From Flavobacteriaceae bacterium (GTDB lineage Bacteria; Bacteroidota; Bacteroidia; Flavobacteriales; Flavobacteriaceae), in contig CANHEA010000002.1 in the NCBI GenBank assembly GCA_947459635.1, positions 1 through 64,000 of the forward strand: a stretch of 64,000 nt of DNA. Reading direction: 5' to 3'. The notes beneath the pieces were generated by a model, which was not told the origin of the DNA, searched no databases, and saw nothing but the letters and a program-made list of their open reading frames with translations. Positions 42,790-63,307 of this stretch are shown piece by piece (the first letter of the stretch is position 1; the number at the start of each line of letters is the position of its first letter). The translations under genes and the position numbers were made by a program.

Positions 42790-43236
42790 ATGAAAACAGA
42801 AGATTTAGACAAGCAGTTAATCGCTGCTACAGAAAATGGACATACGATTAGTCCAATTCTACCTGAGGGAATTAAGAATTATTTGATTGATATTGATGGA
42901 ACCGTATGCGATGATATTCCGAACGAAGAGCCGGAAAGAATGTTAACCGCGGACGTTTATCCAGATGCTTTGGTAACTCTAAATAAATGGTACGACGAAG
43001 GACACATTATATTCTTTTTTACTTCACGAACAGAAGCGCACAGAGAATATACTGAAATTTGGTTAAAGAAACACGGATTCAAATACCACGGTATTTTATT
43101 CGGAAAACCTAGAGGAGGAAATTACCATTGGATCGACAATCATTTAGTAAAAGCAACCCGTTATAGAGGAAAGTTTACGGATTTGATTGAAAAAGAAGTA
43201 ACTATTCAAGTATTCGATGACGGAAAACACGAATAA
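42790..43236 (+). CDS. HAD-like phosphatase-fold protein
   Basis: 'YLIDIDGTVCDDIPNEEPERM' (DxDGT), 'HIIFFFTSRTEAHREYTEIWLKKHGF' and 'WIDNHL'. Confidence 0.75.
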   Translation: MKTEDLDKQLIAATENGHTISPILPEGIKNYLIDIDGTVCDDIPNEEPERMLTADVYPDALVTLNKWYDEGHIIFFFTSRTEAHREYTEIWLKKHGFKYHGILFGKPRGGNYHWIDNHLVKATRYRGKFTDLIEKEVTIQVFDDGKHE

Positions 43237-43241
43237 AGTGG

Positions 43242-43356
43242 CTGAGTAACTGAGTGCCTGAGTGCCTTAGTATTACAGCTACTGAAAAAGAATAGCATAT
43301 TTTAAAGTATAAACTGTTGCTCAGCGACTTAGGTTCTCAGCAACTCAGTAACTAAG
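43242..43356. repeat. Inverted pair of CTNAG octamer arrays (4 + 5 units, exact 8-bp period)
   Basis: CT positions 43242/43250/43258/43266 (CTGAGTAA CTGAGTGC CTGAGTGC CTTAGTAT) and 43320/43328/43336/43344/43352 (CTCAGCGA CTTAGGTT CTCAGCAA CTCAGTAA CTAAG). Confidence 0.85.
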
Positions 43357-43359
43357 ATT

Positions 43360-44151
43360 ATGGCAGAGCAATTATCAGTACCAACCATGGCCGAACTATT
43401 AGCTCAAGGCAAACAACCGGAAGTATTATTTTGGGTTGGATGCGCTGGGAGTTTTGATGATCGAGCAAAGAAAATTACAAAAGCGTTTGTTCGAATTCTG
43501 AATCGAGCTAATGTAGAATTTGCCGTTTTAGGTACTGAGGAAAGTTGCACTGGTGATCCCGCAAAACGGGCAGGAAATGAGTTCTTGTTCCAGATGCAGG
43601 CGATGATGAATATTGAAGTCTTAAATGCTTATGAAGCTAAGAAGATCGTTACTGCCTGTCCACATTGCTTTAATACGCTTAAAAACGAATACCCTGAATT
43701 GGGAGGGAAATACGAAGTTGTGCATCATACTGAATATCTAAAATCTCTTTTAGATTCTGGTAGATTAACCATCGAAGGTGGACAATTCAAAGGAAAAAGA
43801 ATCACATTCCACGATCCATGCTATTTAGGACGTGCGAATAATATTTATGAAGCACCACGCGATCTAATTCAAAAATTAGACGCGGAATTGGTTGAAATGA
43901 AACGTTCTAAAGCCAATGGTTTGTGTTGTGGTGCTGGTGGCGCACAGATGTTCAAAGATGCTGAACCTGGAAATAAAGAAGTCAACATCGAAAGAACCGA
44001 AGACGCGCTCGAAACACAACCTCAAATTATTGCTGCAGGATGTCCGTTTTGCAATACGATGCTTACTGATGGTGTGAAAAACAAAGAGCGAGAAAGTGAT
44101 GTGAAAGTAATGGACATCGCAGAATTAATTGCCAATGCGCAGGATTTATAA
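43360..44151 (+). CDS. (Fe-S)-binding protein with two CCG domains (heterodisulfide-reductase-like)
   Basis: 'FWVGCAGSFDDRAKKI', 'TACPHCFNTLKNEYPELGG', 'FHDPCYLGRANN', 'GLCCGAGGAQMF' and 'IAAGCPFCNTMLTDG'. Confidence 0.92.
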   Translation: MAEQLSVPTMAELLAQGKQPEVLFWVGCAGSFDDRAKKITKAFVRILNRANVEFAVLGTEESCTGDPAKRAGNEFLFQMQAMMNIEVLNAYEAKKIVTACPHCFNTLKNEYPELGGKYEVVHHTEYLKSLLDSGRLTIEGGQFKGKRITFHDPCYLGRANNIYEAPRDLIQKLDAELVEMKRSKANGLCCGAGGAQMFKDAEPGNKEVNIERTEDALETQPQIIAAGCPFCNTMLTDGVKNKERESDVKVMDIAELIANAQDL

Positions 44152-63196: not shown

Positions 63197-63307
63197 GCCC
63201 TAGCCCCGTTAGCAGTGTAAATCCTTTTTTGTTTAATGTGAAGCAACTCGAATGCACTCGGTGTGACAAAACAAAAAAGATTGGAACGGATAGCGGGAAC
63301 AAGCTCC
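63197..63307 (-). repeat. Dispersed structured intergenic element, copy D (minus orientation)
   Basis: Minus-strand reading: GGAGCTTGTTCCCGCTATCCGTTCCAATCTTTTTTGTTT...AAACAAAAAAGGATT...AACGGGGCTAGGGC. Begins in the TAG stop codon of the upstream nucleoside phosphorylase gene. Confidence 0.85.

Follow-up and report, generated by a model that had tools for sequence, protein, structure and literature searches.

The intervening sequences (IVSs) of 23S rRNA are hairpins that combine an inverted-repeat stem with an S23 ORF and are cut out by RNase III (PMC4990558). The protein involved, IVP, is homologous to Avd (PMC10053308). For dispersed palindromes, a REP survey includes two Flavobacterium genomes, and its text makes no mention of tandem arrays (PMC12306157).

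The array described here lies in a 64,000-nt stretch of DNA, which was analysed as a whole and is called the window below. We consider positions 43242-43356 to be, on balance, probably an ORF-less copy of a dispersed IVS-like hairpin element whose fuller copies carry IVP. As in the 23S IVSs with an S23 ORF of Coxiella and Leptospira (PMC4990558), the terminal arms are inverted and able to form a long stem, the fuller copies enclose an S23/IVP (PF05635) ORF, and the total length is similar, about 430-480 nt. In contrast to the IVSs, these elements occur many times per genome and are placed between protein genes, and their arms are arrays of 7-9 nt element-specific words. Because the window element is located between two protein genes, outside 23S rRNA, it is termed IVS-like and not an IVS; no S23/IVP ORF is present in its loop, and a related copy (G000:C4:50339-50801) has one. 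Like REP/BIME with RAYT (TnpA_REP), the arrays are dispersed intergenic palindromic DNA; unlike them, they show no RAYT dependence, have periodic octamer arms abutting coding sequence and go with a different protein. The likeness to the DGR factor Avd lies in IVP, which is an Avd relative by sub-threshold matches to NF033474 and PF22296 (PMC10053308). The short copies also resemble MITEs in being ORF-less, terminally inverted and multi-copy, with a putative fuller partner, but neither a target-site duplication nor a transposase was identified here, and the word varies from element to element. The features of the locus are listed in Table 1.

Table 1. Array and flanking genes at the window locus (positions of the 64,000-nt stretch)
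Feature	Position	Strand	Description	Evidence
Left arm	43242..43270	+	CTGAG-TAA-CTGAG-TGC-CTGAG-TGC-CTTAG, 8-nt period	Direct sequence and phase count
Loop	43271..43319	.	49 nt, AT-rich, without ORF, sequence not conserved among copies	
Right arm	43320..43356	+	CTCAG-CGA-CTTAG-GTT-CTCAG-CAA-CTCAG-TAA-CTAAG, 8-nt period, inverted relative to left arm	Sequence, phase, RNA fold
Upstream gene	42790..43236	+	148 aa HAD-superfamily phosphatase-like protein	Pfam LNS2_PITM1-3 2.8e-7; sub-threshold Acid_phosphat_B
Downstream gene	43360..44151	+	CCG-domain (Cysteine-rich, Fe-S oxidoreductase type) protein, 263 aa	PF02754 8.5e-33

By direct count, the window array consists of four plus five CTNAG units in perfect 8-nt phase, arranged as inverted arms. 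The CT dinucleotides fall exactly where the first-pass annotation had placed them, at 43242, 43250, 43258 and 43266 and at 43320, 43328, 43336, 43344 and 43352, and the sequence bears out its description of the left arm as mostly CTGAG and the right arm as mostly CTCAG, with CTTAG/CTAAG variants. The same holds for the hairpin that it drew around an AT-rich loop of about 50 nt: the loop measures 49 nt, and the RNA of the + strand, which is the coding strand of both flanking genes, folds at -41.8 kcal/mol with the left arm paired to the right arm (z = -4.6; 0 shuffles equally stable). The fold of the minus-strand RNA has z = -3.0. Apart from the two arms, no run of at least two phased CTNAG units occurs in the 64 kb, and in 100 dinucleotide-Markov shuffles of the window two phased units in a row occurred 44 times, and three or more never. 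A repeat-finding search misses the window array because its spacers are degenerate. With Rfam covariance models, no match was found at 43242-43356, and only tRNAs and three Flavo-1 RNAs were matched in the window. The Flavo-1 RNA (RF01705; 34591-34666 and 53600-53701 on the minus strand, 63198-63304 on the plus strand) is another dispersed repeat of these genomes and is unrelated to the array in sequence.

The source genome (G000; 2.68 Mb in 148 contigs, 85% complete) contains 80 matches to (CTNAGNNN)x3, compared with 0 for the reversed control, and one homogeneous array, (CTGAGTTT)7. Among 199 sampled Flavobacterium genomes, x4 arrays were found in 91, at 1 to 226 per genome, and many genomes of 99-100% completeness have none. 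The preferred variants differ, being CTGAG/CTCAG in the source genome and CTAAG/CTTAG in G006 and G015. Thus the search through genome and genus that the first-pass annotation had proposed reveals a widely recurring pattern, and its alternative of a one-off random repeat fails because of this recurrence. In a contig scan, the matches with named records belong to Flavobacterium species; unrelated bacteria were also matched and were not counted as the same element, and viral contigs gave just 90 stretches among 2.9 million contigs.

In paired elements, a CTRAG array forms the left side and a CTYAG array the right, with ~6 to 430 nt of unconserved spacer between them. For 55 arrays in three genomes, the median distance from the outer edge to coding sequence is 7 nt; if arrays are placed at random in the same gaps, 69 nt is expected, and the lowest value from 2000 simulations is 41 nt. 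Arrays at the 3' side of a gene have a median of 3.5 nt and at times overlap the stop codon, and those at the 5' side have a median of 12 nt. The number of units per array peaks at 5 (28/55) and 4 (18/55). Most arrays (44/55) are flanked by codirectional genes, and divergent gaps are under-represented. The window copy fits the placement of the family, since its left arm starts 5 nt past the stop codon of the HAD-like gene and its right arm stops 3 nt short of the start codon of the CCG-domain gene. What had been suggested as a structured leader is indeed structured; the hairpin is an intercistronic one, with its arms set against the upstream stop and the downstream start codon.

Within an element, the two arms form a matched pair. 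Across 51 distinct CTNAG pairs, true partners agree at the variable positions with an identity of 0.657, versus 0.535 +/- 0.017 for permuted ones (0/300 as high), and in G015 the two edges of the same gap are far more complementary than edges of different gaps (95th percentile 17.9 vs 8.8). In many gaps, inverted arrays built from further words are present, and their periods are 7, 8 or 9. The NNN spacers of the window arms are weakly complementary (0.46 identity at variable positions; family mean 0.66, shuffled mean 0.535). Pairing of these spacers was considered as the basis of the array and rejected, being weak in the window copy and significant only across the family. In positions 1-800 kb of G015:C1, non-periodic REP-like palindromes (TTGTCATTTCGACGAAGGAGAAATC and GCTGAGCGAAGTCGAAG types) were also observed; they tend to mid-gap, and the periodic arms abut genes.

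The HAD-like and CCG-domain genes are host genes outside the element, and the latter is conserved in 31/31 sampled genus genomes. In the relatives, the orthologous gaps are unrelated in sequence to the window gap and hold other sequences or other words. For example, in G013, whose CCG protein is 96% identical, the arms in the gap repeat a TTAGATT-type word with period 7, and in G024 and G016 the gap is only 6-7 nt long. The orthologous gaps are without the window element, yet they are too diverged to reveal a junction in an empty-allele or target-site duplication comparison. One convergent gap holds a bare terminator in G004, a terminator within CTNAG arms in G015, a terminator within CAAAG/CTTTG arms in G006 (flanking protein 99% identical), and CTNAG arms around a 5-nt loop in G008. 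According to the comparisons at these two loci, arms come and go, and the word can differ in close relatives. The convergent gap further indicates that host sequence can lie within arms and that arms can change their word without moving, a behaviour unexpected under simple cut-and-paste. A change of word was also seen at an IVP gene upstream of an NdpA-like gene (MINLFNTHI...), a locus shared by many Flavobacterium (e.g. L383, L387, L415): the arm word is CTAAG in most, and CAAAG in G015, G067, G136 and G198.

To our knowledge, S23/IVP ('four helix bundle') and GxxExxY proteins have no settled function, though both are common in these genomes. One CTGAG pair of the source genome, the above copy at G000:C4:50339-50801 (locus L035), encloses an ORF of 119-128 aa that is an S23/IVP gene (PF05635 1e-41, TIGR02436), with matches to the Avd models below the cut-offs (NF033474 1.8e-5, PF22296 8e-7). 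This copy uses the same CTGAG word as the window array, and its arms pair over the full 481-nt RNA (z = -4.8). Since most CTNAG pairs enclose no IVP ORF, the link of the short copies to IVP consists only in word and design.

PF05635 is present in 195/199 genus genomes in 1-17 copies each. We scored the flanks of 47 IVP genes, which are most of the copies listed for ten genomes; these genomes were picked before flank scoring, in several cases on account of their repeat words. Inverted arms surround 44, 36 and 29 of the 47 at scores of at least 12, 14 and 16, compared with 29, 13 and 10 of 666 ordinary G015 genes (4.4% at the lowest score; Fisher P 8e-47, 7e-40 and 6e-31, respectively). Non-cognate flanks, in which different IVP genes are paired, reach 5.8%, 3.0% and 1.8%. 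At a score of at least 12, the controls gave 5/111 genes of similar size and 12/424 source-genome genes, and the top scorer among these 424 is the IVP gene. In other Bacteroidota, arms were found at 54% of IVP genes at a score of at least 14, versus 3.6% for non-cognate flanks. Several matches from searches with two rarer words (CATCG, TAGC, period 7) lie directly beside IVP genes, though in G134 some TAGC arrays are without a neighbouring IVP. At locus L413 (G161:C1:73500-78500), two tandem IVP genes (75743 and 76288) have long homogeneous (CATCGAA)n between and flanking them, an arrangement that looks like recent amplification.

The words around IVP genes are very diverse (CTAAG, CAAAG, TAGCTTT, AAGGGAAA, TTAGACTTC, AGTGATT, GTTGTAT and others), and each is common to both arms of its element and specific to that element. 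Non-syntenic IVP pairs have matching arms (score of at least 12) in 0-0.4% of cases at <45% protein identity, 1.2% at 45-55%, 20% at 55-65% and 2/4 at >65%; these pairs are not independent, because locus L476 supplies many of them, and the top bin holds just four. Such co-travel of word and ORF agrees in direction with arms that would be either a part of the element or a target recognised by IVP. IVP is not the sole protein associated with arrays, since GxxExxY (PF13366) genes are bracketed by similar ones. In Bacteroidota sampled across the phylum, 27/29 GxxExxY genes (L505-L534) have inverted arrays at a score of at least 12, with ACACAGAG/CGCAAAG/CACGGAT-type words. The true-pair signal is less clean here because the elements share words, and non-cognate flanks also score (23%). 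No PF13366 match was found in the source genome.

Several other explanations were weighed. Chance or simple-repeat slippage has a practically negligible probability. The unit is short, and the homogeneous (CTGAGTTT)7 array demonstrates that slippage is possible; but the shuffles gave no run of three or more units, the source genome has its 80 matches against none in the control, and the spacers are degenerate while the core is conserved, as the first-pass annotation had observed in calling the perfect phase unusual for slippage. A REP/BIME-type element, that is, short palindromes mobilised by RAYT (Y1 transposase), fits arrays that are dispersed, intergenic, inverted and present in many copies, and non-periodic REP-like palindromes do exist in these genomes. 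It is nevertheless very improbable. Y1_Tnp (PF01797) is absent from four array-carrying genomes of 99-100% completeness, with 81 (G004), 123 (G068), 75 (G069) and 15 (G045) x4 arrays, and is common in array-free ones; in addition, the REP-like families keep to mid-gap, while the array arms abut genes. The earlier suggestion of a linked RAYT/TnpA_REP gene is thus unsupported, the domain being dissociated from the arrays in both directions. We also regard as improbable an array of multiple DNA sites bound by a nucleoid or regulatory protein of the host that is unrelated to IVP. The nearly palindromic CTNAG, which is also a DdeI-type site, the strict phase and the consistent R-left/Y-right strand preference favour it, but quite different words and periods (7, 8, 9) share the same place and design, and many complete genomes of the genus are array-free.

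A more serious competitor, though still an unlikely one, is an operon RNA device that is not mobile. In this case the gap hairpins would be selected for mRNA stabilisation, bidirectional termination or translational coupling, and the word would drift by local duplication and hairpin-templated copying. Arms lying 3-12 nt from stop and start codons, the preference for codirectional gaps with depletion of divergent ones, the likeness of cognate arms, the native terminators bracketed by arms, and the orthologous gaps that retain arms while the word changes all agree with such a device. However, it does not account for a single word being found at dozens to hundreds of loci in some genomes and missing from others, for the bracketing of IVP genes in particular, or for the co-travel of word and ORF across non-syntenic loci.

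The IVS-like intergenic hairpin element that we prefer is proposed on the basis of the design of the 23S IVSs, the homology of IVP to Avd, and the solved IVP relatives 2gsc and 2rld, which have five chains each. The element would occupy the gap between two genes and be co-transcribed with the operon, its arms pairing as a long imperfect hairpin that would hold the insert away from the adjacent stop and start codons. By analogy with the 23S IVSs, this hairpin may be a substrate of RNase III. IVP, which is probably a pentamer and related to Avd, would bind the arms, possibly with one word per protomer; this last hypothesis is suggested by arms that prefer about five words and a protein of five chains. 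IVP may then help copies to spread, perhaps via RNA, the RNA route being a speculation from the Avd relationship. Among the first-pass suggestions, a palindromic mobile element was in the right direction: the inverted arms are dispersed, and since no insertion with a target duplication was seen, the putative mobility is deduced from this dispersal. A multi-site protein-binding array likewise pointed the right way; IVP, a protein absent from the first-pass suggestions, goes with such arrays and may recognise their words.

A broader reading, which is possible and put forward tentatively, is a widespread and hitherto unrecognised class of bacterial selfish elements, in which an IVP gene, or separately a GxxExxY gene, lies between inverted arrays of an element-specific word. 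A ring-shaped IVP pentamer would read one word per protomer, protein and word would co-evolve with new words arising, and ORF-less copies, the one in the window included, would be tolerated in operon gaps, being insulated as hairpins in the mRNA. In the open-access literature, no paper was found that describes IVP or GxxExxY genes lying between inverted arrays of short words, and an earlier description elsewhere is possible. The enclosure of nearly all sampled IVP genes by such arrays provides a way to explain a large part of the periodic intergenic repeat DNA in Bacteroidota, Flavobacterium included, and connects free-standing elements with the intervening sequences of 23S rRNA. It also turns the function of IVP into a testable question, namely whether IVP binds its own arms.
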